Virus record (IMG/VR): IMGVR_UViG_3300027708_000350
Coordinates: 1-20,043 of that record
Reading direction: 5' to 3' (one strand)
Length of the DNA: 20,043 nucleotides
DNA from: a virus
Below, piece after piece: positions 3,892 through 19,502 of this stretch (position 1 is the first letter of the stretch; the number at the start of each line of letters is the position of its first letter). A program made the translations under genes and the position numbers. Under the pieces are notes generated by a model. The model did not search any database and had not been told where the DNA came from. It saw only the letters and a program-made list of their open reading frames with translations.

Positions 3892-5058
3892 TTAGTAGTT
3901 GATTGAAGAAGAAGTCTCTACACGGTAGAGTGCTTCATCACGGTAGATAGCGTGACCAAGTACGCCGTACCATCCAAGTGGACGGTGACGCATTAACTTG
4001 TCAACGACTGGTCCGATAACAACATGTGGCTCTTCAGCAACGGCTTCAGCAAGTGCTTGCTGTCCAGCGAAGTAGGTATTAAATACCTTTGTTTCATGTG
4101 TGAATGTTATGGATGCACCAGATGTAACTTGAGTTACAATCGCTGTATCAATTGTTACATTGAGACCAGAGATAGAAGTAACCTGAGCACCTGTTGGTAC
4201 GTTAGTTCCTGCTACAGCGTCAGATACCAAGATACCTGAAGAAGAAGTAACAGCAAGAACATATGTTCCTACGTTACCTGAAGCGGTAGTGGTTGTTGTA
4301 GATGTTGACTTAGCAGCACCAACATAATCGGTGTATAGACGTGGTGATTCAACATAGAATGCACCTTCGTATGTACCGATTTCTCCAGCCCAGATTGCAT
4401 CATTGGCTTGGTATTCGTGTGGCTGACGCCATGAACCCACACCAGTCTCAGCACGAAGGTCGTGTGAAACTTCAGGGTGGATACCTGCCCAGTAAAGTGA
4501 ACCCTTACGTGGGATAGCCTTGTTAGCACGCAACTTAGCAGTTGTCTTACGAGCAAGTGCTGAAGTGAATGTGTCTGATGAAGTCAGAGTTGCAGTTGAA
4601 GTACGTGTTCCGCCGTATAGTGCGTTAGCACCTGTGCGTAGTACGTTTTGTGCGACAGTATCAATTGAGTCTGCCATGTTGAATGCAATGATGTTAGCAA
4701 CGGCTGGGTCTACATCAGCAAGGCTGAAGAGTTCCAAGGCGCGGGTAACAAGAACCGCATTACCATACTCAGCAAGAGTAATGGTTGTGTATGTTGGTGT
4801 AGCAAGTGCTACAGCATCTGGGTCTGTCTGTTCTGTAAGAGTGTTAGTCTGTTGAGTTAAGTCAACGTAACGCTGCAAAACAACTGATGAACCAGGGATG
4901 CTTTGACGTGCAGGTGTCTTATCGGCAACTGAACGGATTAGTGGTTGTGCACGGAGTGCGAACTCGATTAGACGGTCATACGCCTTTTGTACGAGACCAG
5001 CACCACCTACGGTACCTCCGAGAGAGGACGAACCTGTGGTTGTATATGCATTAGCCAT
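3892..5058 (-). CDS. Major capsid protein, N4-gp56-family-like, with an insertion domain
   Basis: A 388-aa protein. Residues about 25-150 show features of the N4-gp56/P22-coat-like HK97-fold group: LIEFALRAQPLIRSVADKTP, SVVLQRYVDLTQQTNTLTE, TITLAEYGNAVLVTRALELF and IAFNMADSIDTVAQNVLRTG. Residues about 185-250 contain the loop region (YWAGIHPEVSHDLR, GSWRQPHEY, GEIGTYEGAFYVESPR). Residues about 251-323 are an unusual Thr/Ser/Gly/Val-rich beta insertion, after which the core resumes (NTYFAGQQALAEAV...KLMRHRPLGWYGVLGHAIYR). It follows the scaffold gene by 39 bases and has the best ribosome binding site in the window, as expected for the most abundant virion protein. It assembles the icosahedral head. 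Confidence 0.9.
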   Translation of the reverse strand: MANAYTTTGSSSLGGTVGGAGLVQKAYDRLIEFALRAQPLIRSVADKTPARQSIPGSSVVLQRYVDLTQQTNTLTEQTDPDAVALATPTYTTITLAEYGNAVLVTRALELFSLADVDPAVANIIAFNMADSIDTVAQNVLRTGANALYGGTRTSTATLTSSDTFTSALARKTTAKLRANKAIPRKGSLYWAGIHPEVSHDLRAETGVGSWRQPHEYQANDAIWAGEIGTYEGAFYVESPRLYTDYVGAAKSTSTTTTTASGNVGTYVLAVTSSSGILVSDAVAGTNVPTGAQVTSISGLNVTIDTAIVTQVTSGASITFTHETKVFNTYFAGQQALAEAVAEEPHVVIGPVVDKLMRHRPLGWYGVLGHAIYRDEALYRVETSSSINY

Positions 5059-5097: not shown

Positions 5098-5580
5098 TTA
5101 AAAATTTCCCGACTGAATCATTGCGATAATTTCCTCGGCACTTGCTGCCTCGTTAAGTCTCATCAATGCATCTTCAGCACGGTCAGGCGTAACAGCCTGT
5201 TGAGTAACAATGTCCTGTTGTCGCAAAGCGGCACGGTCCAATGTTTGTTCAGGTTGTCCCTGGTTCTGCACTTGAAGCCCGAATACCTCAGCGTTATCGT
5301 CAAGCCAATCAGAGATTGATTCTTCGTTAGCATCTGCTGGTAGTTCATTAGCAATCATGCGTGCAGCCTTAGGGCTTACACCTTTGTTTTCTAGGACTCT
5401 CTTGATAATAGTTTCACGTTGTGCTTTAGTGATACCTTCAAGTTGTTCAGACATTTCTTTGATACGCTTTTCATCGGCGCGAGCCTTCTTGCGCAACTGC
5501 TTAATTAAGTCGTTGCCCTCAAGATTTCCCTGAGGTGTATCATTGTCGTCTTCATCGTCTTCCCAGTAGTTTGTTGCCAT
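5098..5580 (-). CDS. Capsid scaffolding protein
   Basis: A 160-aa acidic, helical protein. The N-terminus is very acidic (YWEDDEDDNDTP). Residues about 24-62 form a charged coiled-coil-like helix (LIKQLRKKARADEKRIKEMS). A middle segment (KGVSPKAARMIANELPADAN, then SISDWLDDNAEVFG) is typical of scaffold proteins of actinobacterial phages. The C-terminus is a short amphipathic helix (AEEIIAMIQSGNF) that could bind the coat protein. It sits immediately before the capsid gene, the classic scaffold position. It would template procapsid assembly and leave before or during packaging. No protease motif is seen, so it is probably not a protease-scaffold fusion. GGGAG lies about 10 bases before the ATG. 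Confidence 0.85.
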   Translation of the reverse strand: MATNYWEDDEDDNDTPQGNLEGNDLIKQLRKKARADEKRIKEMSEQLEGITKAQRETIIKRVLENKGVSPKAARMIANELPADANEESISDWLDDNAEVFGLQVQNQGQPEQTLDRAALRQQDIVTQQAVTPDRAEDALMRLNEAASAEEIIAMIQSGNF

Positions 5581-5705: not shown

Positions 5706-6917
5706 TTAGAACTTACCTTGTACCGTTCTTGCACTAGCAAGGTTGCTTGCTTGTGGATTAAGACCTGCATCTCCACTAAATTGAGCACGCTCCATAGACG
5801 CTAGTTGTTTGCGCTTAAGCGCAGCATTAGCATCAGACTTTAAGAACTCTGCTTCTCCTGCCATCTGGTCATACTTAACACCCGATGGTCCATAAATATC
5901 ACTTAACTTACTAGCAGTAGGCAAAATAGAAGCAATGTTTCCAGCACCTGCTTGTGCTTGTGATTGTGTTATTCCATACGCAGTAAGGTCTTCCATATTT
6001 GCTTTGCCTGCGCTAAGTCCTTGTTCTTGGAATGCTGCACCAATTTGTCCTGTTGTTACTTTTTGTTGTAAAACAGGTAATGTATTAGTAGGGTCAAGGA
6101 AGTATGATACTAAGTCACCTTGTGAAATACCAGGGTAATATGTTTTAAGTTGTGCAAGAATTTGTGGGTCAGCATTCTGTACTTGGTCTACCGCTAAAGC
6201 AGCCCGTGTATTAACATCAGTTGCGGCTACGCCATTACCAATTAAATTAGCAAGTGTACTACGCGTACCAAGATTTTTAACACCATGTGCATTAAGGTAT
6301 TGGCTCATAGCATCTTCTTGCGCAATGTAATTAGATTCACTTAATGAATTAAGTCCAGCAGCAACACGCATTGTATTGCCATGGAAACGTGACTCATATG
6401 CAGGCAATGCACGTATACCCAATATAGTTTGATTAGGACCCATATTAGGGTTTAATAATGACTGTTGAATATAGTTTGTTATTTCATTTAATTCATTAGG
6501 AAGAAATCCATATGATTGCATAGTAGCAGTAATCAATGCAAAAGCATCCGCTTTATCTGCTGCTGCTGTAGAAGTAGAAGAAGATGTAGTTGTACTTGTG
6601 CTTCCATAACCCTTTACCCCAAGCGCAGTAAATGCTTGAGATACAGATTGCGTTATTGGGTCTGTTCCTTGATTAATTGCGTCTAATTGATTTGTTACAT
6701 CTGTATTTGCTGTAGTATTTTTAGTAGTGGCTGCGTTGTTTGCCGCAACAATAGGAGGCACAGTTGATTGAAGTTGTTTTACTTGTTTTGCTAAAGCATT
6801 AGCAGCCTGTTGTTGTGGTGATACTGCTGGAGGTTTAGTAGAAGAGGTAGTTGCAGCAGGTTTAGGTGTTGGAACTGCTCTAAGTCCAGATAGAACATTA
6901 TATCCTGTAGTTGCCAT
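5706..6917 (-). CDS. Uncharacterised virion-type protein (403 aa), probable internal/ejected protein
   Basis: I set the start at 6917 (MATTGYNVLSGLRAVPTPKP), where the ATG overlaps the previous stop as TAATG with AAGGTGG upstream. An ATG six codons earlier lies inside the preceding gene and adds only MGQGGL. Residues about 15-35 are Pro/Thr/Ser-rich. Residues about 36-150 are Ala/Gln/Thr-rich and low-complexity. The rest is mainly helical, with SRFHGNTMRVAAGLNSLSES, SQYLNAHGVKNLG and AALKRKQLASMERAQFSG. No enzymatic motif, signal peptide or membrane segment is visible. It is the last of three tandem genes with Pro/Thr N-termini between portal and scaffold. An internal-virion or ejection role is inferred from position and style only. 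Confidence 0.72.
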   Translation of the reverse strand: MATTGYNVLSGLRAVPTPKPAATTSSTKPPAVSPQQQAANALAKQVKQLQSTVPPIVAANNAATTKNTTANTDVTNQLDAINQGTDPITQSVSQAFTALGVKGYGSTSTTTSSSTSTAAADKADAFALITATMQSYGFLPNELNEITNYIQQSLLNPNMGPNQTILGIRALPAYESRFHGNTMRVAAGLNSLSESNYIAQEDAMSQYLNAHGVKNLGTRSTLANLIGNGVAATDVNTRAALAVDQVQNADPQILAQLKTYYPGISQGDLVSYFLDPTNTLPVLQQKVTTGQIGAAFQEQGLSAGKANMEDLTAYGITQSQAQAGAGNIASILPTASKLSDIYGPSGVKYDQMAGEAEFLKSDANAALKRKQLASMERAQFSGDAGLNPQASNLASARTVQGKF

Positions 6918-8383
6918 TAGCCCACCTTGCCCCATGTTTTAAGAATGGTATCTAATAATCCTGCTGCCATTTCATTAGCATTCTTTGTGGTCCGCCATGC
7001 AGGGTCTTGTCTTACTTGTGCAATGTAATCACTTAGTGATGGTAACTTATCACCACGTAAAGCAGTTTGAACTGTTGGGTCCATAACATTCACACTACCT
7101 GCTGGTAATTCTAATTCTGATTCTTTTGCTTTTTGATATTGAGAAGCAACATCTTTAACAGTTAAACCGCCCTTTTCAAGGAACGGTGCAAGACTACTAT
7201 AATGTGCTATAGCAAGTTGTCCTATGCCAGCAATCTGTGAATCTACAGAACCACCTTTGCTAAAGACTTTGTTTACTCTATCCACAACTTCATTGTGTGT
7301 CATAGGTATACCTTGTTCATTAGCGGCTTTAATAATTTTTGTATATGCTTGACCCATTAAACCACCTGCTTCTTGCAGTTTAGTTGAATCAACATTAAGA
7401 ATACCCGTGCTCTTAGCCTTAGCATCACCATGAGTGATTAAGTCTATTTGCATAGCCAAACGGTCTTCAGGTTTTAATTGTGCATAACTTATACTTTGTG
7501 TTTGAGTATCATTTGTTATAGGGTCTCTTGTTCCCTGACTAATACTAGTTCTTGCTAGTTCAGTAGCATGTAACTTAACCCAGTAAGCATGTGCTAGTGC
7601 CATATAGTTATTAACTAATGAAGGGTCACCTACGTGTGCACGTGTTGTTCCTTCAAATTCCTGCAATGCATCTGCTTCTGTAGTAAGACTACGTGTAGAA
7701 TCAGTAGAATGAGTAGGGTCTGTTGGTAATTGACGTGAACTAACATATGAATTAAAATCTAATAATGCAGCGGGTAGTACGGCTTTAGGGTCAGTTGCTA
7801 ATGCTTTGGCATTATTAATACCATTATAAAAGTTTGATACAGATAGTTCTTCAAGTGATTTTTTAACAGCCTGACCAAAGGCTACATCTATACCAGTTGT
7901 AGTTTTAAGAGAATCTCTAAATGCTTTATCACTTGGATATAATGCTTTAAGTTTTACTTTATAAGTTGGAAGTAATGATGGCGGTATCTGTGATATGGCT
8001 TCTTTAGCAGCAGCATCAGCATCTTGTGTAGTAAATCCTTTACCATCAGCACTAGGTGTAATGATAATTGATGTAGGTTGTGAACCTTTAACAGATGGAC
8101 CAGCAGATATATAAGGAGTTAGTTGAACTCCACCAGACATACCACCTTGATTATATGTTAATGTGCCATCAGTAAATTGTGACCACTGATTTGATGCACC
8201 CATAGTTACATCTTTAAGACCAGCAGTATCACCCGTAACAGGAGGTGCATCAGCAAATGGTTGCCCTGTTATAGATGGACGTGGTGTAGGCGTAGGTGTA
8301 GGCGTAGGTTTTTTGTTTGTTAATTTTTTGTTAGCAGCAATGGCTGCTTTCATGGCAGGAGTTGTAGGTTTAGGTGATGCCAT
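6917..8383 (-). CDS. Uncharacterised virion-type protein (488 aa) with a (PT)n N-terminal tract
   Basis: A 488-aa protein. Residues 1-40 are Lys/Ala/Pro/Thr-rich and include a PTPTPTPTPRPS run at about 27-38, encoded by a GTAGGY hexamer repeat. Next comes a Gly/Ser/Thr beta-like section (GASNQWSQFTDGTLTYNQGG, SGGVQLTPYISAGPS), then a long helical body with LYPSDKAFRDSLKTTTGIDV, ALAHAYWVKLHATELAR and KPEDRLAMQIDLITHGD. The C-terminus reads LLDTILKTWGKVG. No known domain is recognised. The start at 8383 overlaps the stop of the 1886-aa gene (TAATG) and lacks a clear Shine-Dalgarno, so it probably relies on translational coupling. It is a candidate partner of its giant upstream neighbour inside the capsid. 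Confidence 0.75.
   Translation of the reverse strand: MASPKPTTPAMKAAIAANKKLTNKKPTPTPTPTPRPSITGQPFADAPPVTGDTAGLKDVTMGASNQWSQFTDGTLTYNQGGMSGGVQLTPYISAGPSVKGSQPTSIIITPSADGKGFTTQDADAAAKEAISQIPPSLLPTYKVKLKALYPSDKAFRDSLKTTTGIDVAFGQAVKKSLEELSVSNFYNGINNAKALATDPKAVLPAALLDFNSYVSSRQLPTDPTHSTDSTRSLTTEADALQEFEGTTRAHVGDPSLVNNYMALAHAYWVKLHATELARTSISQGTRDPITNDTQTQSISYAQLKPEDRLAMQIDLITHGDAKAKSTGILNVDSTKLQEAGGLMGQAYTKIIKAANEQGIPMTHNEVVDRVNKVFSKGGSVDSQIAGIGQLAIAHYSSLAPFLEKGGLTVKDVASQYQKAKESELELPAGSVNVMDPTVQTALRGDKLPSLSDYIAQVRQDPAWRTTKNANEMAAGLLDTILKTWGKVG
8284..8308. repeat. Hexanucleotide microsatellite (GTAGGY)n in the 488-aa gene
   Basis: About four tandem GTAGGC/GTAGGT units on the plus strand encode the PTPTPTPT tract. 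Repeat length could change by slippage in steps of two residues without shifting the frame. Confidence 0.85.
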
Positions 8384-11300
8384 TATGGTTTACTCATCGC
8401 TACTGTAGTATCCTTTAGTAAGTTATCAATCAATGGTTTAATAAAACCTTGATATGCGCCAGTAAGAACATCGTTGCCTGTAGAAACCTTTTGCAAGTTA
8501 GCCAACCCTTCTTCCTTTACGCGTTGAACGGCAGCAAGACCACCTGGTTGTTGACGGATATTAGGGTCAGATAGAACTGTAAGCATTTGCTTTGTAAGTG
8601 CAGTCATAGACTGTAGTAAACCTAGTTGCCCTTCAGGGGCAACGTTAGTAAACCGTGGGTCGTTAGCCATTTGGTCTAATGAATTAAACCGTTGAGCATA
8701 TACTGAGCGTTGAGTTACAGTTGCTTCGCCTAATGTTTCACTTAAGTTAAAGTTCTGAGCCTTAAGGTCTGCTTTATCTGCTGCTGCTAACTTAATCTTT
8801 TCTGCACGATATGCTTCATTATTACGTTCAGGATTGTTAGGGTCAGTTAGTAATGCATTAAGGTTGCGGTCAATGTCATAGTATTGAGCACGTAGTTTAA
8901 CTGCAGATAAAGTCTCCATATATGTCTGGAGTCCTTTACCATTCATAACCCAAGGGTTACTGCCAGCAGGTATTAAGTCTGCTGCTTCCATAAATTTTTG
9001 TACCGCTGGGTCAAACTTACCTGTATGCGGAGCAAATACATATGCTACTTCAGGGTATGCAGCAATTAACTTCTGATTATTTGTTACCCAATTCTTTATA
9101 TCTTTGGTGTAATTAATAGCCATCTTAGCCGTATTGCTATTAGCATTAACAGTATAAACAAGTTTGTCAGGGTAACTACCAGCAAACAATGATACTGCTG
9201 TACCAGTAGGGTCTTCCAATTGGAAACCATACTTAGCATTGTTATCTAATACTGCACGAAGTATGTCATTGTACTCTTGACGGAAACTAATAATGCCAGT
9301 TCTGCGTAGTTCATCAGGTATTCCTAGGTCGGTTGTACCTAGTGGCAATGGAGAGATACTGTTATATCCTGCTTTAACTACCACTAAGTTCATACTTTGT
9401 AAACGTAAACGATAGTAATACTCTTGCACCTTTGCATCATTCTGCCAGTCTTCAGGCTTCATACGTGTCTGATTGTTAGACTGTAAGTATGCTGCTGCTT
9501 GCATAAATGATGTAGCAGCAATAGATGTTTGATGTTCAGGGTCATATGCTTGCCATGCGTTAAGCACAGACGTAGGAATAATACCACGTAACCATGTAGT
9601 GTTATCTGAACCTGGACCCATAATCCAATTGTCTAAGTTTTCAGATAATGAAAGCATACGCCCATCTTTATAGTGACGACCTACAGCACCTAGTAGTGCT
9701 TTAAGTCCTTCAACACTGGCTGCAATAGTAGCACCAGAGAATGATGGTATGCCTGTACCATCAGCATATGATGGGTTAAGCATAGATAATTTAAGTGTAT
9801 ATTGGTTAAAGTCTGGTTGTTTAAAGAACCCCGTGTTGCCTGTAACGGCTGCACCTACTGCACCAATTGGATTAGATAATGCTGCTAGTACTGGTGCTAT
9901 GCTAGATATAATAGTTCCATCATGTGGTAGCAATACATACACACCACCAGTAGTTGGGTCAGTATATGTTAAACCAGAACCACTCATGGCTTGGCTAGTA
10001 TGCCCTATGCGATAGATAACTTTGTCAGGATGTTCATATAACGAACGCACAAAACGGCGTGCATAGTCTTCAGTAGCACGATAGAACCGTCCTACTACAC
10101 GCATGTTCCATGCCATTTGAGTACGTACGTCAGGGTTATCTGCGTACTTCATAATCTCATTTATAGCATTGTCGCTTGCTTTATTACTAAAGTAAACTCT
10201 ACCTTGTAGTTTAGCAGATTCAATCTCTGCTATTGTTACATGTTCATCAGGTTTTTTACTACGTTGTAAATTATCAATTAAAGTATCAACATATGCTTTT
10301 TCATTAGAAGCCATAATCTTACGTTGTTGTAATACTTTAAGATGAAATGCATCGGCACGATAGATGTCAGTTAATTGTCTGTCCATCATTTCCCATGGAA
10401 CATTCTTATACTTAGTGTATAGTTCACTAGGCTTACGAGTAGTGCCTACAAGTTCATCAAAATTATATGAAGTCTTTAGTTCACCTTTAAGAGGATGTAG
10501 TTTAGTTAAGTCTTCAAACTCAGAGTATGCGGTTTTTTCAACAGCACCAGCATAACTAGTCTGTCGTGCCTGTATCTTTCCCCATTTAGCAATAGTAGCA
10601 GCAGATGGTGGCTTTAATCCAGCACCTACTGATTCACGGAATTGATTCCATTTTTCAGTCTTTGCTTCACGGGCAGCAATTTTTTCTTCAGCAGCCTGTG
10701 CTTTGTTTTTAATGAAAGAAACTAGTTGTTGGTTAAATTCATTACCGCTACCATGAACAACTGTGTATAATTCTTTAAGCGCATTGCGCAAAATAGATTC
10801 AGTTATCTCAGATTCAGATAAACCAGCCTTGCGTAAGGCTGTAGTCTGACGGACAAACCGAGCGTTAAAGGCTTTAACATTAGCATCTGCTTGTAATGAA
10901 GTAACATGCTTTGTTTTACTAACATCAAAAGATTTTGTTACCCAAGCACCACGTTCTTTACTCCACCCAAGGGTATTCATGGCTTCATTAATATAGGCTT
11001 CTGTTTCTTGACGGGTGCCTACACCATTATACTTAAAGAATAATTCACCAAAATCTAAAGACTTACCCCATGGGTTAGAATAAACATTCTTAGCCAGCAT
11101 TTTAAAGAACTGGTCATAGTGAACCATTGTGCGAGAAGAATTTAATAGTTGTAAATGTGGAGTTTCAGTAGCGTACTTACCTGTATCCTTAAGACCTTGT
11201 GCTTCAACAGCATCAGTAAGGTTACTAGCCCCGTACATTTCTTTAGTAATGCTTCCATCTACAAAAGTATCAGCAAATGTATTGGCAATCTTAGAACGAA

Positions 11301-14043
11301 CCATGCCTTCCATGGCAAGCGGGTTATGCAATAAAAAATCTGTAAGATATCCATGTTCTTCTGCTGTTAATTTGCCAGCATACTTAGCAATACAACGATA
11401 TATTACGCGTTCTGCAACGGTAGCACCATAGTATTCATCTGCATCTACCCACTCATTAGCAGGAATCATTTTACCGTTAGGTAATCTAAAGTCAGCCTCT
11501 AGTTGTACAGGCTCACCCATTTTTTTACGTTCTGCTGCAGGAATAAATTCAGCAGGATTTTCAATTTTTAAGTTTACTAACTTACCTAAGCGTGTGCGAC
11601 TTGCTTTCCCGCCAAGTGATAGCATACGAGCCTTAACAAGACCCATTGCTTTTTCATTACCAGTAACTGCAGTTACCGTATTGCTTAAACGGCGACCCTT
11701 GCCAGTAAAATAATCATAAATTGCTTGTGGTGATTGAACAGTTAAACCCATAGTTAACTCATCCATAGCGGCTCGTATGCCAAGTTTAGGAATTAACGTT
11801 AATGCAGCCCATGCTTTGTTAATTACGCGAGAAAATCCCCAGTTAGTTGCCCCACCAAGTGATAGGTAACGTGATAAACCGTGATACATACCTGTGTTAT
11901 CATAAACAAATTTATGTAATTCATCAAAATGAGGTAGTTCTACACCTTCGGTGGTATGTAATATCTGTGAAGCACCTTCAGTTGTGTGATAAAGATTAGG
12001 ATGAGCCATGTGCTCTGGTGTTTCAGGGTTAAATACTGGACCCATACCACGTGTAGGAGCATAACGATTTTCAATTATGGCTTTAGAAATGTCCATGCCT
12101 TTAGCGGTAGAGTTTAAACCAATTTTGTCATGGTATAACTTCTCCATACTAGCAAGCATATTCATGCGGTCTTCGGAATCAATACCTAAAAAACGCTCAG
12201 CCCAAAGGTTGGCGGTTGATTTATCGCCTACAATTAAACGTGCGTAGTCTCTAAACGCACCAATAGACTTTAATACTAATCCATCTTCTGTAAAAATCAT
12301 TGCTTGTGCTGGATGAATTGCCATTAAGTTTTTTGCTGCAGTAGAAAAACCTTTTTTTGCTATACCAAGTTGTTTAAGTACATTGTCTTGTGCAGGGTCT
12401 ACAAGACCTGGACCACGCTCAGGAGCGTTGGCAAAATAATTATCCCATTTAGCCCATGACTCACGTGCCTCGGCAGGCACAGACATGTAGTCTGCTCGTT
12501 TAATTGCATCAGCACCATTAAAAATTTCATGTACCCATTGACGCATACCGTCTGTAATCTTGCGAGTTGAGCGTTCTAGCATTACATGGTTTTCGCGATA
12601 GTAACGACCACTTAACATTTTACCTGAAATGATGTAGTTAGTATCTTCACCCATTTTGTAATATTTTTCTAGGGTAGCAAGGTCAGTAATATGTGATAAT
12701 TTTTCAGCGTCATTAAATGGACGTGCTGTCATCAACCGATTAAGCAATGGTGGATTAGCATACTCAGGAAAGTTTTGTTCAATGTGACTAAAAATTCTTT
12801 GTGCTAATGGTCCATCTTTAACTTCACGTGCCTCACGCAATGCATTAAGTACTGGCACAAATCGTGCTTGACGGTTAGCAAATGCTGGCACTTTAAATAT
12901 ATCTGATACGGCTTGTTCAACACCCATTGATGTAGATGTTTTAGTAAATTGTTCAGCCAGTTTTTCAGAAGAAAATAATGCTTTAGATGTACCACCAGTA
13001 AGCCATGTCACTGGGTCTATGGCTGTGCTATAAAGTGCATCAAGAGTTCCTGATGGAGATACTAATGCTTCTTTACCAAATGGATTAGGGTTTGTTGATA
13101 CCCACTTTTTACCATCTAATGACGCGCCAACATCTCCACCTAAACCTACAATTCCAGCAGGGTTAAGCAAGATTGGCATAACTGCACCCCACACACCACC
13201 ATCTTTAGGTGGGTGATTATTATTTGCCCAACGAGTAATGTCACGTCCAGGACTTATTTGTGCATCTTTATAATCATTAAATGCAGATTCAAATGCTTTA
13301 GCAGCAGGAGTTAATGTTCCTTTAAAACGTGCATCATTGCGGGTAGCATAATCGGAATAAGAACTAATGGCATTAGCCATATCATTATCTAATTGTCCAT
13401 GCTCGCGAATAATTTGACCAGGTGTCTTGCCATCAATTATACCTTTTGCTAACGCACTCATAGCATTACCATGTTGTGCGATTAATTTATTATTAGTTTC
13501 TGCTGTCCATTGATTATGACCATCCCAAATATCTGACCATGTTTTAGCAGTAGTTACATAATGAAATGCATCTTTAGCAGATTTTGCCGTAGGCAACATT
13601 GCATCTGCTGTTGGAAATAATGTATCTCCAAAATTTTTCAAAAAATTATATTGAAAATGAAGTGTTTGTTGGTAACCTTTAGCAACTGCACTTAATGTTT
13701 GCAATGGCGATTTAACTAAATCAATTGCACCATTTTTAAGAGATTGTAAAAAACTTGGATTGCTTTGTTGGTACCCAGCAGTAGGATTAATAAACTGTAA
13801 TGCACCTTTAACATCTGAGTCAAGGTTATGGTACTGGGCACGTGATGCACCAAGGTCATGATTAGCATTAAGTTTTTGGTCTAGGTTTACAACTTGTTGC
13901 AGGTTATTGAGGAACAACGCATTACTACCCGTAAATTGCCCAGCATTAACCGCAGCATATAATTGTGGGTTAGCATTGAGTAGCGTCTGGTTGGGCGCAC
14001 TTGGTGTAGGTGTGGGTGTAGGTAATGGCGTTGTGAATGACAT
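8383..14043 (-). CDS. Giant virion-type protein (1886 aa), probable internal/ejection protein
   Basis: This is the longest gene of the window, 28% of its length. Residues 5-16 are a Pro/Thr tract (PLPTPTPTPSAP). The body is mainly helical and charged. Hydrophobic patches lie at about 283-305 (VMPILLNPAGIVGLGG) and 1376-1402 (SSIAPVLAALSNPIGAVGAA); a Lys/Glu/Ala helix lies near 1110 (NKAQAAEEKIAAREAKTEKW). The region near 745-790 (ATNWGFSRVINKAWAALTLI and onward) is weakly hydrophobic. No polymerase, transglycosylase, peptidase or ADP-ribosyltransferase motif was recognised. Such size and make-up suit internal virion proteins that are ejected into the host and form a channel through the envelope. 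The position between portal and scaffold makes a tape-measure role less likely. Start and end use TAATG overlaps. Confidence 0.78.
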   Translation of the reverse strand: MSFTTPLPTPTPTPSAPNQTLLNANPQLYAAVNAGQFTGSNALFLNNLQQVVNLDQKLNANHDLGASRAQYHNLDSDVKGALQFINPTAGYQQSNPSFLQSLKNGAIDLVKSPLQTLSAVAKGYQQTLHFQYNFLKNFGDTLFPTADAMLPTAKSAKDAFHYVTTAKTWSDIWDGHNQWTAETNNKLIAQHGNAMSALAKGIIDGKTPGQIIREHGQLDNDMANAISSYSDYATRNDARFKGTLTPAAKAFESAFNDYKDAQISPGRDITRWANNNHPPKDGGVWGAVMPILLNPAGIVGLGGDVGASLDGKKWVSTNPNPFGKEALVSPSGTLDALYSTAIDPVTWLTGGTSKALFSSEKLAEQFTKTSTSMGVEQAVSDIFKVPAFANRQARFVPVLNALREAREVKDGPLAQRIFSHIEQNFPEYANPPLLNRLMTARPFNDAEKLSHITDLATLEKYYKMGEDTNYIISGKMLSGRYYRENHVMLERSTRKITDGMRQWVHEIFNGADAIKRADYMSVPAEARESWAKWDNYFANAPERGPGLVDPAQDNVLKQLGIAKKGFSTAAKNLMAIHPAQAMIFTEDGLVLKSIGAFRDYARLIVGDKSTANLWAERFLGIDSEDRMNMLASMEKLYHDKIGLNSTAKGMDISKAIIENRYAPTRGMGPVFNPETPEHMAHPNLYHTTEGASQILHTTEGVELPHFDELHKFVYDNTGMYHGLSRYLSLGGATNWGFSRVINKAWAALTLIPKLGIRAAMDELTMGLTVQSPQAIYDYFTGKGRRLSNTVTAVTGNEKAMGLVKARMLSLGGKASRTRLGKLVNLKIENPAEFIPAAERKKMGEPVQLEADFRLPNGKMIPANEWVDADEYYGATVAERVIYRCIAKYAGKLTAEEHGYLTDFLLHNPLAMEGMVRSKIANTFADTFVDGSITKEMYGASNLTDAVEAQGLKDTGKYATETPHLQLLNSSRTMVHYDQFFKMLAKNVYSNPWGKSLDFGELFFKYNGVGTRQETEAYINEAMNTLGWSKERGAWVTKSFDVSKTKHVTSLQADANVKAFNARFVRQTTALRKAGLSESEITESILRNALKELYTVVHGSGNEFNQQLVSFIKNKAQAAEEKIAAREAKTEKWNQFRESVGAGLKPPSAATIAKWGKIQARQTSYAGAVEKTAYSEFEDLTKLHPLKGELKTSYNFDELVGTTRKPSELYTKYKNVPWEMMDRQLTDIYRADAFHLKVLQQRKIMASNEKAYVDTLIDNLQRSKKPDEHVTIAEIESAKLQGRVYFSNKASDNAINEIMKYADNPDVRTQMAWNMRVVGRFYRATEDYARRFVRSLYEHPDKVIYRIGHTSQAMSGSGLTYTDPTTGGVYVLLPHDGTIISSIAPVLAALSNPIGAVGAAVTGNTGFFKQPDFNQYTLKLSMLNPSYADGTGIPSFSGATIAASVEGLKALLGAVGRHYKDGRMLSLSENLDNWIMGPGSDNTTWLRGIIPTSVLNAWQAYDPEHQTSIAATSFMQAAAYLQSNNQTRMKPEDWQNDAKVQEYYYRLRLQSMNLVVVKAGYNSISPLPLGTTDLGIPDELRRTGIISFRQEYNDILRAVLDNNAKYGFQLEDPTGTAVSLFAGSYPDKLVYTVNANSNTAKMAINYTKDIKNWVTNNQKLIAAYPEVAYVFAPHTGKFDPAVQKFMEAADLIPAGSNPWVMNGKGLQTYMETLSAVKLRAQYYDIDRNLNALLTDPNNPERNNEAYRAEKIKLAAADKADLKAQNFNLSETLGEATVTQRSVYAQRFNSLDQMANDPRFTNVAPEGQLGLLQSMTALTKQMLTVLSDPNIRQQPGGLAAVQRVKEEGLANLQKVSTGNDVLTGAYQGFIKPLIDNLLKDTTVAMSKP
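14004..14023. repeat. Short hexamer repeat at the start of the 1886-aa gene
   Basis: About three degenerate GTGTAGG/GTGTGGG units encode PTPTPTP near the N-terminus. It is the same codon pattern as the tract at 8284-8308 in the next gene, so the two N-termini share a repeat type. Confidence 0.75.
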
Positions 14044-14462
14044 TAGCCCTGCATAATCTTATTATAGACAGCCTCTAGTGAACCAGATGGGTCATTCTGC
14101 ATTGCTTGATAAACAACGTTAGCAGGTTGAACTGCAGTAGCCGCAGGTGTATTAGATAAATCTAATCCAGGACCTTCGCCCCAGTTAGCACCATGTGATT
14201 CAGGAAGACCTGAAGGCGGAGCCATAAGCGGAATAGAAGGCAAGCGTGTAGCAGCCATTGGGTTGCCAGCAAGAGGAGCAGATGTCTGTTGTGTCATGGT
14301 TGATTTGTTATTACCATATGCACCACCAGTATATGCTTGTGCTGGTTGTGTTAAACCTTCAACAGCACCACCGTCTGTACGTGCTGATAAAGCACCAGGA
14401 CCAGAGACAGGAGCAGGATTACTAGGTTGCTTATAGCCACCACTATTTGTATTACCAGCCAT
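14043..14462 (-). CDS. Low-complexity Gly/Pro/Ala/Ser-rich protein (139 aa), unknown function
   Basis: A 139-aa protein. Residues 1-110 are Gly/Pro/Ser/Ala/Thr/Asn-rich and probably disordered (SGPGALSARTDGG, YTGGAYGNNKST, LPSIPLMAPPSGLPESHG). Only the last 30 or so residues look helical (NVVYQAMQND, LEAVYNKIMQG). No domain is recognised. The ATG at 14462 overlaps the previous stop (TAATG) and has a strong GAGGAGGA upstream inside the end of the 77-aa gene. The stop overlaps the start of the giant gene (TAATG). A linker or capsid-internal peptide is possible, judged from position only. Confidence 0.68.
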   Translation of the reverse strand: MAGNTNSGGYKQPSNPAPVSGPGALSARTDGGAVEGLTQPAQAYTGGAYGNNKSTMTQQTSAPLAGNPMAATRLPSIPLMAPPSGLPESHGANWGEGPGLDLSNTPAATAVQPANVVYQAMQNDPSGSLEAVYNKIMQG

Positions 14463-14705: not shown

Positions 14706-16505
14706 TTAAACTACGCGGCGTTGTGAACTTATACGAGATGTTGCTTTAGTAGAACCTGTTCCACTTAAAGAAGAAAGAATAGTTTGTAGTTCTGGTTTTG
14801 CTTGTGCTGGTGGAACTTGCATCTGTTGTCCAGGTGGTAGTTCTCCTTGTTGTGGAGAGCCTCCTACTGGAGCACCAGGAGCGGCAGGGACGGGCTGCTC
14901 AACTGATTGTTGTGACCCAGCAGGAGGAACTTGGGATGCAAATATATCTTCAATTGCATCTTCAATTTGTTTTCCCTTTTGACGCGCTTTGATTACTTCC
15001 GCAATCTTACGTACCAAATCTGTGGGGTCTTTTCCTTGCATAGTCATCTGTGGGATGGCTTGTGTCATTGCTTGCAACGAACCAATAAGGGAGTTGCGTA
15101 ATTCTTCTACTTCAATTTTTTCTTGTTCTAAAGATACGTTCACATTAAATGGAAGTTCACGCATAGCCATGTCTTTAGAGATTAACTTACCACCTAATGC
15201 TTGCAGCATAAAGATAAGTCCTTGTGCTGGGTTAAGACCAGCCAACATTCCGTAGCGCACATCGGCTGAGTAATCACCCTTGATATCCTTAGAAGGGGTG
15301 TATGTCACCACATAAGGTGAACCAGCGTCAACGCCACGAATTGTTTTAGTTGAGTTAAACATCTTTTCATCAGTCTCAAAACAAAGACTGATAACATCAC
15401 GAAGTGCTGTAGAAAAGATTGCTTGCGCAGATTTAATCTGCGTATCAAATGCTCCAAGTAATGCTTGTACACCTTGTCCAGTGATGACACTTGCATTAAC
15501 ATTTCCAGTTCTAGATTCTGGATAGCGGGCGCCTACGCGCAGTTCTTCATTCAGTAATTGAGATTCAGTAAACGCGCCTTGAGGTAGAGACAATTCTACA
15601 CGGCGTACACCTTGTGGGTTAGCCGTACGAATAACAGCATCTCCACCAAGTTGTAGTTCCTGAACATCTTGAGGTAAAACGATTGGTGCTTGAACTGACT
15701 TCTCGGCTGCTTCCATTGCAAGTAATGCAAATCGGTTACGAAGCAACTGAATACCCAGTACATCATCAAACTGTCCACGTAGTTCTCCGTCTGGACCAGG
15801 ACGTTTTGCAATAACAACATTCATTTTACCAAGAGGATTCTTAGCGTGTGATAGTAGTAAGTTATTGCGTGATGGCAAAAACAAAACGGTTTGGTCTTTA
15901 TCATAATACCGAATCATTTCAATCATGCCATTGAGGTCTTGTTTGTAACCCAACTTGCCTAGCAATTGATATTCATGTTCAGGGAACATGGCTACCAATT
16001 CACCTAGTGTCATTGAGTAACGTTTAGCAAAAGCAACGCAGCGTCCATAGCGGTCAAATTCGGGATAAGCCCCGACAGGATTTTCTAAGCGGATGCGTGG
16101 TAATTGCTCCTCTTCATCCAGTTCAATAATGAACGGGAGGAAACCATAAGTAATATACATATCTGCGCCGTTATACATATTGACCTGAAGGTCAGATAGG
16201 CGGAAATAGTTTGAGGCAATAAGTGTGCGCTTATCTGCAAAAGTACGCGCACGGTCAGAAACTTGATTAGCAGCAGAACAGTTTACAGCAGGTAATGGTG
16301 CTATAACTTCTGCAAGGTCACGGGCAACAATGTCAATAAAGTTTGCAACTACGTTCTGGTCAATACCATCTGGAAAGAAGTTAGGGTAAACCTGTGAGAT
16401 TTTACCTTGACGTACCATCTGAACATCACCATTGCGTTGGTCACGACCATGCGCTCGGTAGCGTAGCGTTTGAACGCGTGCGCCAATTTGTTCCATACTT
16501 AACAT
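14706..16505 (-). CDS. Portal protein
   Basis: A 599-aa protein next to the terminase group. It has the portal layout: an N-terminal helical/wing part (PNFFPDGIDQNVVANFIDIV, RDLAEVIAPLPAVNCS), a central beta-rich part (FLPFIIELDEEEQLPRIRLE, GAYPEFDRYGRCVAFAKRY) and a clip/stem-like middle. A long helical section then carries EQEKIEVEELRNSLIGSLQA and LVRKIAEVIKARQKGKQIED. Residues about 524-570 are a Pro/Gln/Gly-rich tail, probably disordered. Portals form the dodecameric vertex through which DNA is packaged and the tail attaches. The ATG at 16505 overlaps the previous stop (TAATG); Met4 is an alternative start. The assignment rests on overall pattern, size and position rather than one diagnostic motif. 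Confidence 0.85.
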   Translation of the reverse strand: MLSMEQIGARVQTLRYRAHGRDQRNGDVQMVRQGKISQVYPNFFPDGIDQNVVANFIDIVARDLAEVIAPLPAVNCSAANQVSDRARTFADKRTLIASNYFRLSDLQVNMYNGADMYITYGFLPFIIELDEEEQLPRIRLENPVGAYPEFDRYGRCVAFAKRYSMTLGELVAMFPEHEYQLLGKLGYKQDLNGMIEMIRYYDKDQTVLFLPSRNNLLLSHAKNPLGKMNVVIAKRPGPDGELRGQFDDVLGIQLLRNRFALLAMEAAEKSVQAPIVLPQDVQELQLGGDAVIRTANPQGVRRVELSLPQGAFTESQLLNEELRVGARYPESRTGNVNASVITGQGVQALLGAFDTQIKSAQAIFSTALRDVISLCFETDEKMFNSTKTIRGVDAGSPYVVTYTPSKDIKGDYSADVRYGMLAGLNPAQGLIFMLQALGGKLISKDMAMRELPFNVNVSLEQEKIEVEELRNSLIGSLQAMTQAIPQMTMQGKDPTDLVRKIAEVIKARQKGKQIEDAIEDIFASQVPPAGSQQSVEQPVPAAPGAPVGGSPQQGELPPGQQMQVPPAQAKPELQTILSSLSGTGSTKATSRISSQRRVV

Positions 16506-17197
16506 TACTTACCGCCTACATCTGAGTGTCCACCCATATGTTGTCCACCAAGTCTATTGGAAGGATGGTCTGGAAATTTTTGAGTATTACCAACTTTTGA
16601 TACACCAGCATCTGGATTTACTTTTATTGGTTTAGGTTTACCAGCAACATTAGAACCTTTAGCCAAAGGTGCAGTTGCTTTAGGTAAAGATGGTTTAATA
16701 ACAGGACGTGGGTTAGTTGGTGTCCACGCACGCACTCCAGGTGCAACAGGTGGGCGTACACGTTGAGACCGAGGGATTACAGCAGGTTGAATTTTAGGAG
16801 CAACTAATGTTCCCTTATCCATTTGATTTTTAATAACAGTGCGTGTTCCTTGAGGAACAGTACCGCCACCAAATGCTTTATATGTAGCAGAAGCAAGACT
16901 TGGTTTTTTAATATCTGCTGTAGGTTTAACTACAGACTCACCACGTGGCTTAACAGCACCAGTAAGTTTTTCATTTGGTTTAACAGCAACAGGCTTATAA
17001 GCAGTTGTGGAAATAGTATTAGTTCTACCATTATCAGGTAGACGTGGCTTAGAAATGCCAGCAGCGCGTTGCGCTACTTCACGTGCATCAGCATCACTAA
17101 CACGATTAACGTTACGACCAGCAGCACCAGAGATGCCGCCAGAAGTACGTGCACCAGCAAATCCGCTTTCACCACCGCCAGGGCGTAATATAGCCAT
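16505..17197 (-). CDS. Basic Pro/Lys-rich low-complexity protein (230 aa) with a C-terminal GGQHMGGHSDV motif
   Basis: A 230-aa strongly basic, probably disordered protein. Its N-terminal 30 residues are Gly/Ala-rich (GGGESGFAGARTSGGISG). The middle has many KP and VKP steps (AYKPVAVKPNEKLTGAVKPR, PRPVIKPSLPKATAPLAK). The C-terminus has GKPKPIKVNPDAGVS followed by RLGGQHMGGHSDVGGK. The PIKV and GGxHMGGHSDV elements recur in the next upstream gene, so the two are partly paralogous. No known domain is seen. It starts 5 bases after the neighbour's stop with no Shine-Dalgarno, suggesting coupling. Lying between terminase and portal, it could bind DNA or the packaging motor; the His-rich motif might bind metal. 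Both are inference. Confidence 0.68.
   Translation of the reverse strand: MAILRPGGGESGFAGARTSGGISGAAGRNVNRVSDADAREVAQRAAGISKPRLPDNGRTNTISTTAYKPVAVKPNEKLTGAVKPRGESVVKPTADIKKPSLASATYKAFGGGTVPQGTRTVIKNQMDKGTLVAPKIQPAVIPRSQRVRPPVAPGVRAWTPTNPRPVIKPSLPKATAPLAKGSNVAGKPKPIKVNPDAGVSKVGNTQKFPDHPSNRLGGQHMGGHSDVGGK
16518..16552. repeat. Copy 1 of a 35-base repeat encoding the GGxHMGGHSDV motif
   Basis: The plus strand from ACATCTGAGTG to CCACCAAG matches the copy at 17279-17313 at 28 of 35 bases. Several differences are in third codon positions, so the protein motif is better kept than the DNA. Confidence 0.8.
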
Positions 17198-17202
17198 TTA
17201 AA

Positions 17203-17604
17203 TTATTTGTTCTTTGTAGAAGAAGGTTTAACAATAGGAGTCTTAACTGTAAAGCCACCTAGATTAATAGCAGTAGAAACATCTGAATGACCGCCCATAT
17301 GCGTTCCACCTAGAACGCCAGTACTTGAATGAACTTTAATAGGTTGAATTGGTGCTTTAGGATTATAGGTAGGATTACCATAATCATCTGTACCTTCTTT
17401 AGAGTTCCATTCATTATGACCCCAGTCATATTTTTGAGGTCCATTTCCCATAATTGAAGAATCAGTTGGACCCTTCATGCTTTTAGCAGGTGTAGGGTTT
17501 GGGTTAGAGTTAACTTTAACAACAGGTGCTTTACCCTTGCTTGCAACTTCTTTATTAATTTGTCCCATAGTCTTACCGCTTGGGTTTACTTTTTGAATTG
17601 CCAT
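17203..17604 (-). CDS. Low-complexity protein (133 aa) with a GGTHMGGHSDV motif
   Basis: I set the start at 17604 (MAIQKVNPSGKTMGQ), preceded by AGGATTAACC. An upstream ATG at 17634 would begin inside the terminase gene and add an unlikely MARHIRIGLT. The protein is Lys/Asn/Pro/Gly-rich (VVKVNSNPNPTPAKSMKGP), with an aromatic/acidic patch (KYDWGHNEWNSKEGTDDYGN). It then has PIQPIKVHSSTGVLGG, THMGGHSDV and a basic tail (VKTPIVKPSSTKNK). The PIKV and GGxHMGGHSDV elements match the C-terminus of the 230-aa neighbour. It is probably disordered with one conserved motif, and the function is unknown. Location right after the terminase suggests a packaging or virion-assembly link. Confidence 0.68.
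   Translation of the reverse strand: MAIQKVNPSGKTMGQINKEVASKGKAPVVKVNSNPNPTPAKSMKGPTDSSIMGNGPQKYDWGHNEWNSKEGTDDYGNPTYNPKAPIQPIKVHSSTGVLGGTHMGGHSDVSTAINLGGFTVKTPIVKPSSTKNK
17279..17313. repeat. Copy 2 of a 35-base repeat encoding the GGxHMGGHSDV motif
   Basis: Partner of 16518-16552, in the same orientation, 28 of 35 bases identical. It marks a partial duplication between the two neighbouring genes. Confidence 0.8.
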
Positions 17605-17612
17605 GGTTAATC

Positions 17613-19502
17613 CTATCCGTATATGTCTTGCCACTGGTCGTGGAAGGCTTCGTCTAAATTGATTGAGCCTCTACGTTCCATTTGAGAACGCGTAGCCCAG
17701 CGGTTGTTTACATATTGTGCAGTACGACTACTACTTTGCATTAGTTCGCGTACGCGAATAACAGCAAACCATAAAGCCATAACAGTATCTGTCTTACCTT
17801 TAGTCTCAGGTTTCCATGTTAATAGTTGCTGAGTTAATGCTTTAATTCCTTCAGAGCCTTCGGAAGAAGGTATCTCTAAGATATTGTTTTTCTGGAACTC
17901 TCCATCGCGTACCGTTCCAAACAGCGTGGACATTGATGCCACTCCGAATGTTGTGTCCCATTTGTTCTTGCCAGTAAAGTGAGCGTCAAGCCGTACGCCG
18001 TAACCAGCGAGCCAGTTTCGCAACTCGTCATCAAGAGAGTACGCTTTCTGGTGCGCGTTAATTTCCACGCGTAGTTCTTGAGGTTTATACTTTTGAACCA
18101 GTTCTTCAATTTGTAACCTAATCTTTTGAGGGGTAGGTTCAGACATGTTAATACAGTCAAGAACATAGATACGTCCATCCGCTCTGTTATAGGCAACAAC
18201 AACAAATGCTGCATTCCCTGCCATAGCAGGGTCAAATCCGATTACAGTGTGTGTCTCTACTTGCTGTGGGTGTCCCACGACTCCAGCCCGTAGTGGACCT
18301 CTTTTACGTGCCCCGTTGGTGCTTCCTTGCACAAGCATTGGTGGGAAGATAGAATCTTCTTGAATGTCTTCTTGTTGGTAGACAAGTGCCCAGGTTGATG
18401 GCGTAACTTCGCTTCTCCGTTTGAATAAGGCTTGACCATCCCACTTGGGGAAGAAGCCGTTTGCCTGAGGCGTGTCAGTATCGCCATCCCACGGTACGTC
18501 CGACTCTTTCCAAAGAGTAACCCAATCCTCTGGTTTTTCGGCGTATTCAAGTACCGCAGGCATTCCCATATAAGTAAAGGGGGTACGACCACCAGACCAA
18601 TGCTTAGGATTACGCAGTTCTTTATAAAGGTCGTTAGCCGCAATTCGTGTCCCAACTACTAGCAACTTACCATTCTTACCCAAACGGGTAATAACTTCTT
18701 TCTGTAACCAGTCCATCTGCTTTTCCCACTCATGGGCATTAGCAGTAGTTATACAGTCATCAAGAATAATCAAGTCGGCGCGTGCGCCGTAAATTTGTCC
18801 GCCCATACCCAGTGCTTGTAGCGTTGGGTCTTTCTCGCTTGAGTTACGAGCATCGCCCCCAAGGTAAACAGTATCGGTACGCCAAGTATCCGCATCCCCT
18901 TTCCAGCCGCCATCTGGACCATATGCGGTCTGCAGTTTAAGCCAGCGTGGATGGGACAGTCGTTGCTTGATTGCGTAGACGAACTCTCTCGCTTTATTCA
19001 AAGTCTTAGATACCACAATGATACGAACATTGGGATTGAGGGCAATTCGATAGGTGGAATAGTTCACCGTAATAACGGTGGACTTAGCATGCTCTGGAGG
19101 TACATTGACCAACAGTCGGTTATTCTCGCCAGGCTCGTATTTCATAGACGGGTGCAACCATGATGGTTCGCGCCCTTCCAATAGGTCAACCCAATCTTGA
19201 TGATGGGGAAAGACCGTCTGGTCTAGAAATGCTTTTGAGAAGTCTTTGAATGGCATGGATTCTTTCTCCACACCCATAGCATCAAAGGATTGCTTCTGTC
19301 CTTCAGTTTTGGCTTCCTCTAGGTTTGCCGCGAAGAGAGGGTCGCGATTCATCCACTGACGGATGGTATCTGGCTTCTTGTTTACTAGTGCCATTGCCGC
19401 TGGTATTGTTACCCCAGAGCGTATAGCGTTGAGCACTTGCTCTTTGGCTTGGGCTAGTCCCTTAACCAAATGATGCTCTGTGCCAGTTTTAAATCCAGCC
19501 AT
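17613..19502 (-). CDS. terL: Terminase large subunit with an N-terminal helix-turn-helix
   Basis: A 629-aa protein. Residues about 22-65 resemble a small-terminase-type helix-turn-helix (VLNAIRSGVTIPAAMALVNK, PDTIRQWMNRDPLFAANLEE). The ATPase follows: a Walker-A-like LLVNVPPEHAKST at 130-142, Walker B LIILDDC at 244-250, and a coupling motif VVGTR at 282-286. The RNase-H-like nuclease has GFDPA (Asp424), VEIN (Glu480) and TDTVMALWFA (Asp572), the expected acidic triad. It cuts concatemeric DNA and pumps it through the portal. It is the first gene of the minus-strand block, ends in TAG, and lies 8 bases before the next start. The Shine-Dalgarno is weak (GGGAC) and buried in a small hairpin. 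No separate small terminase is in the window. Confidence 0.95.
   Translation of the reverse strand: MAGFKTGTEHHLVKGLAQAKEQVLNAIRSGVTIPAAMALVNKKPDTIRQWMNRDPLFAANLEEAKTEGQKQSFDAMGVEKESMPFKDFSKAFLDQTVFPHHQDWVDLLEGREPSWLHPSMKYEPGENNRLLVNVPPEHAKSTVITVNYSTYRIALNPNVRIIVVSKTLNKAREFVYAIKQRLSHPRWLKLQTAYGPDGGWKGDADTWRTDTVYLGGDARNSSEKDPTLQALGMGGQIYGARADLIILDDCITTANAHEWEKQMDWLQKEVITRLGKNGKLLVVGTRIAANDLYKELRNPKHWSGGRTPFTYMGMPAVLEYAEKPEDWVTLWKESDVPWDGDTDTPQANGFFPKWDGQALFKRRSEVTPSTWALVYQQEDIQEDSIFPPMLVQGSTNGARKRGPLRAGVVGHPQQVETHTVIGFDPAMAGNAAFVVVAYNRADGRIYVLDCINMSEPTPQKIRLQIEELVQKYKPQELRVEINAHQKAYSLDDELRNWLAGYGVRLDAHFTGKNKWDTTFGVASMSTLFGTVRDGEFQKNNILEIPSSEGSEGIKALTQQLLTWKPETKGKTDTVMALWFAVIRVRELMQSSSRTAQYVNNRWATRSQMERRGSINLDEAFHDQWQDIYG

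Follow-up and report, generated by a model that had tools for sequence, protein, structure and literature searches.

Our main result is that a giant-protein cassette, g139-P1-P2-P3, is co-inherited among related phages and swapped en bloc between a conserved portal gene on one side and a conserved scaffold gene on the other. The cassette lies in a 20,043-nucleotide IMG/VR virus record (IMGVR_UViG_3300027708_000350), a 20-kb fragment that was analysed whole and is referred to here as the window. In our judgement, it probably encodes an internal ejection (DNA-entry) set whose members are co-adapted and exchanged as a block, in a podovirus family with isolated members that infect actinobacteria, freshwater ones among them. 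The features under study are as follows:

14706-16505, minus strand: portal, conserved left flank (phrog_104; 75-100% identity for most of the 80 relatives listed)
14043-14462, minus strand: g139, 139 aa, Pro/Gly-rich, left member of the exchanged cassette
8383-14043, minus strand: P1, the 1886-aa giant, whose profile matches 91 of the 101 giants at this place
13993-14034, minus strand: Pro/Thr tract at the P1 N-terminus (residues 4-17), seen from composition
8386-10440, minus strand: conserved C-terminal part of P1 (about residues 1202-1886), seen from the conservation profile, with the motif GRFYRATEDYARR at 1318-1330
6917-8383, minus strand: P2, 488 aa, a variable N-terminal slot followed by a conserved C-terminal domain
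8276-8308, minus strand: Pro/Thr tract of P2 (residues 26-36) with a hexamer repeat, seen from composition and repeat
6926-7423, minus strand: C-terminal domain of P2 (residues 321-486), phrog_6654 type, common to Streptomyces phage gp12 (NlpC/P60) and gp13
5706-6917, minus strand: P3, 403 aa if read from the ATG overlapping the stop of P2, a variable head followed by an all-helical core (phrog_8424, E 3.7e-60)
5760-6557, minus strand: conserved core of P3 (residues about 121-386), seen from conservation; model pLDDT 82.8
5098-5580, minus strand: scaffold, conserved right flank (phrog_7813, weak scaffold matches; 99% identical to the copy in locus L002)
3892-5058, minus strand: major capsid protein (MCP), conserved right flank (phrog_1357; identity up to 97% among the relatives listed)

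The late genes of the window run along the minus strand in the order TerL, two small Pro/Gly-rich genes, portal, g77, g139, P1, P2, P3, scaffold, MCP, small genes and an adaptor-like gene. As stated in an initial annotation of this DNA, P1, P2 and P3 are consecutive, with the coordinates and sizes listed above, and the share of the window it assigned to them (about 42%) is 41.6% as measured. Confirmed, too, are their Pro/Thr-rich starts, where P and T together account for 14 (P1), 17 (P2) and 12 (P3) of 40 residues (fractions of 0.35, 0.43 and 0.30), and the GTAGGY-type hexamers of the first two genes, which come as three units in P1 (14006-14023, the middle one being GTGGGT) and four in P2 (8286-8309); P3 has no hexamer repeat. 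TAATG joints, also pointed out before, do connect the three genes but are unspecial, the same overlap being found at 8 of the 18 gene starts examined in the operon. There is no Pfam match for g139, and P1 falls into no family in Pfam, PHROG or NCBIfam and has no convincing sequence match in the PDB. Two small genes upstream of the portal (16505-17197 and 17203-17634) have a C-terminal GG(Q/T)HMGGHSDV motif in common, as if by partial copying. In the MCP, about 65 residues (around 252-316) match phrog_10467 and are absent from the capsids of locus L008 and of the Beephvirinae; this segment is probably an inserted surface domain.

Relatives were found by tblastn against 50,697 phage records, with P2 and P3 hitting 29 Streptomyces phages and P1 and P3 hitting OX376640 (Planktophila phage LanE43-AprE7, hereafter E7), and by profile searches of IMG/VR, which gave 289 confirmed stretches for P1 and 149 for P3 (the best 80 of each being listed). 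A host look-up in GTDB contigs returned no relative. The locus set of 312 (window added, L001 dropped) came to 224 after removal of overlaps and to 101 with portal plus scaffold or MCP, while phage F5 was left out as an overlap of E7 and analysed apart. The source contigs of L188 and L285 (79,356 and 76,622 bases) are about twice the length of the family's 39-kb genome and perhaps represent doubled assemblies. In every one of the 101 deduplicated loci, the portal and a downstream scaffold or MCP enclose a P3 and a giant that is 1200 aa or longer; P1 and P2 are adjacent in 107/107 and P2 and P3 in 145/145 cases examined. The order portal, small genes, giant, P2 type, P3 type, scaffold and MCP is common to E7 and the Beephvirinae, and two P2-family genes, as with gp12 and gp13 of the Streptomyces phages, occur in nine of the 101 loci. 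When P1 proteins are classed by single linkage at 35% identity, the window falls into class B. The profile of the P1 C-terminal part matches the giants of F5 and classes D/F (E 3.5e-15), which in turn match the gp10 pair of the Beephvirinae (E 2.7e-65), the direct profile match between P1 and the Beephvirinae giant being weaker (probability 81%, E 1.2e-5; 15% identity). Since they are linked through these profile matches, P1-type, F5/class D/F and Beephvirinae giants probably form one very old family.

En bloc replacement is seen in two isolates, the Planktophila phages E7 and F5, which infect one strain. In their description, one of two extremely variable regions is an 8-kb island that encodes three hypothetical proteins in E7 and four in F5 and is assigned no function (PMC10202952, Kavagutti 2023). 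The two phages are close to identical in TerL (99.7%), portal (96.6%), scaffold (98.7%) and MCP (99.0%). DNA similarity between them ends at E7 position 8372, 88 nt into g139, and returns at 16922, 10 nt before the P3 stop. Between these breakpoints, F5 has its own g139 (50%), a 1711-aa giant with no BLAST match to that of E7, its own P2 and its own P3 (26%). From the coordinates we infer that the published island is the g139-P1-P2-P3 cassette. This link, and the one to the Beephvirinae genes, are made in the present analysis and are new with respect to PMC10202952; our limited literature search found no paper assigning a function to the cassette. Between the portal and g139, E7 (locus L005, 7500-8036) also encodes a 178-aa protein that scores 25.5 bits with the Pfam proteasome subunit (cut-off 22.4), its F5 counterpart being 92% identical; the hosts are actinobacteria.

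Among the metagenomic relatives, too, g139-P1-P2-P3 behaves as one exchange unit. Complete copies of all seven genes were present in 29 of the 101 loci, which had been collected by searching with window proteins, a selection that can skew distances. For these 29, Mantel rho was 0.82 for g139-giant, 0.59 for giant-P2, 0.46 for giant-P3 and 0.72 for scaffold-MCP, as against 0.05 for giant-scaffold and 0.12 for P3-scaffold. Distances of g139 thus follow P1 far above those of the neighbouring portal (0.27). One may object that P1-P3 simply evolve fast in place, without any exchange, and ejection proteins do diverge faster than portals according to the available text of a 2022 review (PMC8954989). 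The trees, however, make this very improbable to us. On quick LG+G4 trees, which carry a long-branch warning for P2, P3 and MCP, classes B and C are each a single clade with P2 and with P3 (SH-aLRT 99-100), yet class B stands at separate places on the portal tree (5 changes for 5 rows; single clade rejected, AU p 0.0002) and on the MCP tree (7 changes for 12 rows; single clade rejected, AU p 2e-6). On the scaffold tree its 17 rows take 11 changes, of which starred branches force at least 6, and the AU test with this short protein does not reject a class B clade (p 0.135). The reverse test points the same way: the window's MCP group of seven, five of which have class A cassettes, is recovered on the MCP tree with modest support (77), and the P3 tree rejects such a clade (AU p 2e-64). 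Nor would evolution in place account for the abrupt breakpoints between E7 and F5.

Exchange of the cassette is further illustrated by loci L016 and L141, which are 94% identical in portal and 96% in scaffold as against 27% in P1, 18% in P2 and 34% in P3. Of 303 pairs with conserved flanks, 203 have giants below 45% identity and 32 have giants at 70% or more. In the 203 pairs (portal at least 80%, scaffold at least 65%, giant below 45%), which come from 42 loci and are non-independent, similarity returns just ahead of the P3 stop, by 2 nt in the median (quartiles -58 and +3). The left border is looser in the same pairs, similarity ending between the end of the portal and g139 at a median of 358 nt upstream of the g139 start. 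The exchanged block would hence have the P3 stop codon as its right border and a left border near g139. Single metagenomic loci may be chimeras; E7 and F5 are isolates. Exchange is partial and layered rather than free, because linkage between TerL and giant stays moderate, with rho at 0.51 when class E is left out (n=35) and at 0.30 within classes A and B (n=33), and because portal and giant agree in some subsets, namely those gathered with P3 (0.84, n=17) and with the portal (0.62, n=15) as query. For giant-scaffold, rho reaches 0.41 in the P3-query subset, and the query subsets thus differ in strength.

Judged from sequence, the N-terminal ends of P2 and P3 are hypervariable slots. Gp12 of phage Manuel has NlpC/P60 (Pfam, E 2.6e-29) ahead of the P2-type C-terminal domain, NlpC/P60 being found in one of 76 P2 proteins, and LysM is detected by Pfam in 6 of 78 P3 proteins. 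A LysM-like motif lies within the first 120 residues of 11 among 160 complete P3 proteins (classes A, B, C and F plus five unclassed loci) and of none among 101 giants, 149 P2, 107 portals, 122 MCP and 67 TerL. In the window's own P1-P3, PHROG and Pfam searches found no peptidoglycan hydrolase. LysM or Ala-rich heads can stand where others have P/T-rich sequence; within class B, for instance, the P3 head is LysM in L180 and P/T-rich in L268 and L285. A P3 relative of 867 aa (L142:7622-10225) has a long head, its conserved core lying at residues 584-861.

These slots bear on the proposal, made in the initial annotation, that the Pro/Thr heads shared by the three proteins serve as a common signal for targeting or packing. 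Indeed, the heads of P1-P3 are the three highest in P+T among the 19 genes compared (p about 0.018 for a consecutive top three by chance, in a test picked after the data were seen), and P2 heads with at least 25% P+T are found in 10 of 17 class B members versus 7 of 84 in other classes. Comparison of N-termini across relatives, named beforehand as a refuting test, nevertheless finds the tracts mostly missing: among relatives nonredundant at 80%, the first 40 residues contain at least 30% P+T in 0/44 P1, 5/75 P2 and 8/77 P3, and LysM or Ala-rich heads take the same place. We therefore reject the Pro/Thr head as a conserved signal and rate a common targeting or packing role as the least credible of the readings considered here. 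By profile-profile comparison, moreover, the bodies of P1, P2 and P3 are mutually unrelated (hhalign probability below 2%), and there is no support for their being diverged copies of each other. Because the heads are slots that in relatives can hold NlpC/P60 (P2) or LysM (P3), the P/T tract is best read as a linker filling in a variable slot, and the Pro/Thr heads as lineage-specific linkers rather than a family feature.

The wider suggestion that P1-P3 are an internal or ejected protein set fares better, although the common P/T signal that was part of it falls away. It gains indirect support from the fixed place between portal and scaffold, from NlpC/P60 and LysM in relatives and from inheritance as a block. 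The Streptomyces relatives of P2 and P3 are podoviruses; no tape measure match was found for P1-P3 and no tail-tube gene among the genes examined in the 20-kb fragment. The model of the P3 core is confident and all helical. It has no convincing match among PDB folds (best VIA Z 5.3 over 69 residues, serum albumin) and nine in BFVD at E 0.001 or below, four of which are named uncultured Caudovirales phage, one of the four being a LysM protein. The P1 C-terminal model is of low confidence, so its fold search is left uninterpreted. The maximum 19-residue hydropathy mean is 1.46 in the 101 giants versus 1.31 for portal and 1.40 for MCP, a comparison that length confounds.

In the mechanism we propose, P1, P2 and P3 would be packed in the head and exit ahead of or together with the DNA. 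P2 and P3 would work at the cell wall via exchangeable N-terminal modules, and P1, a largely helical giant, would help to build a path through the envelope. Two other roles have to be weighed. Firstly, P1-P3 might be internal head cargo that counters host defences after entry and is swapped for that reason; injected cargo is known from T4 internal proteins and DarA/DarB, and both the giant size and the fact that phages of one host replace the hypervariable block as a whole would fit. Polyvalent or DarB-type anti-defence head proteins, however, have recognisable enzymatic domains, and 23 giants searched at E 0.01 yielded no Pfam family, enzymatic or otherwise. What domains the set does contain (NlpC/P60, LysM) relate to the cell wall, and movement of the three genes together, with giant and P3 present in 101/101 loci, suggests an essential machine over optional cargo, which leaves the cargo reading unlikely. 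Secondly, the position between portal and scaffold would also suit non-ejected proteins of assembly or head morphogenesis, acting as a core, in head completion or as an internal scaffold. Unlike what shell-fitting proteins should do, P1-P3 are not tracked by capsid, scaffold and portal distances, and cell-wall domains on P2/P3 relatives argue against such a role as well; to our minds, it is rather more doubtful still than cargo.

As an ejection set, the cassette would move between related phages with portal, scaffold and capsid remaining in place, and it would be exchanged en bloc because its parts must fit each other. In the available text of PMC10883804, P22 with all three ejection genes from Sf6, L, CUS-3 or HK620 is a functional phage and P22 with Sf6 gene 16 or gene 20 alone is not viable. 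What drives the exchange may be host exclusion or a defence acting at injection. This driver is plausible because HK620 ejection proteins give P22 partial escape from SieA exclusion (PMC10883804, same text) and because SNIPE, a membrane nuclease, attacks phage DNA while it is being injected and is found in association with tape-measure proteins, as described in the accessible part of PMC13190303. If so, a hypervariable phage island described without a function gains a probable identity, that of a DNA-entry protein set, and the focus in phage-host conflict moves away from receptor binding and towards genome entry. More tentatively, and with odds we would put somewhat below even, the DNA-entry machine of these abundant aquatic actinophages, and not only their tail fibres, may be a rapidly exchanged arms-race module: a co-adapted giant-protein ejectosome that serves in hosts with a single membrane, shows no detectable kinship with the T7/P22 sets and is swapped as an 8-kb cassette between same-host phages, probably in escape from membrane-level exclusion or injection-stage defences. 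E7 and F5, with their near-identical remaining genomes and the same host strain, offer a natural pair for work on cassette function.

Among known systems, E7 is colinear with the window and 64% (TerL), 73% (portal) and 67% (MCP) identical to it. The Beephvirinae (Streptomyces podoviruses such as Manuel and FlowerPower; gp10, gp12-gp14) have homologous TerL, portal, P2, P3, scaffold and MCP in the window's gene order, P2 and P3 by way of phrog_6654 and phrog_8424, with giants linked through profiles and only remotely like P1. They differ in an extra 271-aa gene, a tRNA block between P3 and scaffold and two proteins of P2 type; one carries NlpC/P60 (Pfam), and the other (Manuel gp13) is called a 'glycosylase' in the record only, a sequence search finding no lysozyme-type fold. 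At 41-42% identity in portal and 44% in TerL, comparison of the 20-kb fragment suggests that the window phage lies outside the Beephvirinae.

With T7 (gp14/gp15/gp16) and P22 (gp7/gp20/gp16), the cassette has in common that its adjacent late genes are of unequal sizes, one being very large. A cell-wall enzyme can sit on different members of such sets; here, it is seen on Manuel gp12, and none was found in P1-P3 of the window. In contrast to the cassette, which lies upstream of scaffold and MCP, ejection genes of T7 and P22 occupy another genome place. The cassette also differs from these sets in its larger giant and actinobacterial hosts, and no sequence, profile or fold link (PHROG, PDB-sequence, Foldseek; the P1 model being poor) ties P1-P3 to the ejection proteins of T7, P22 or N4. 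The T7/P22 sets are themselves mosaic and fast-diverging (PMC8954989, available text) and exchangeable as a set (PMC10883804, available text). SU10 (Kuravirus) gp20-24 are a podoviral ejection set, too, with another genome place and other proteins as far as the available part of PMC9509320 goes, and the SU10 adaptor weakly resembles the window's adaptor-like gene. In its available part, the 2022 review lists ejection sets for phages of hosts grouped as Gram-negative and reports ejection-type proteins as not found in phi29-like podophages of Gram-positive hosts (PMC8954989). Set against this grouping, our data suggest that a large ejection set is in use among actinobacterial podoviruses as well.
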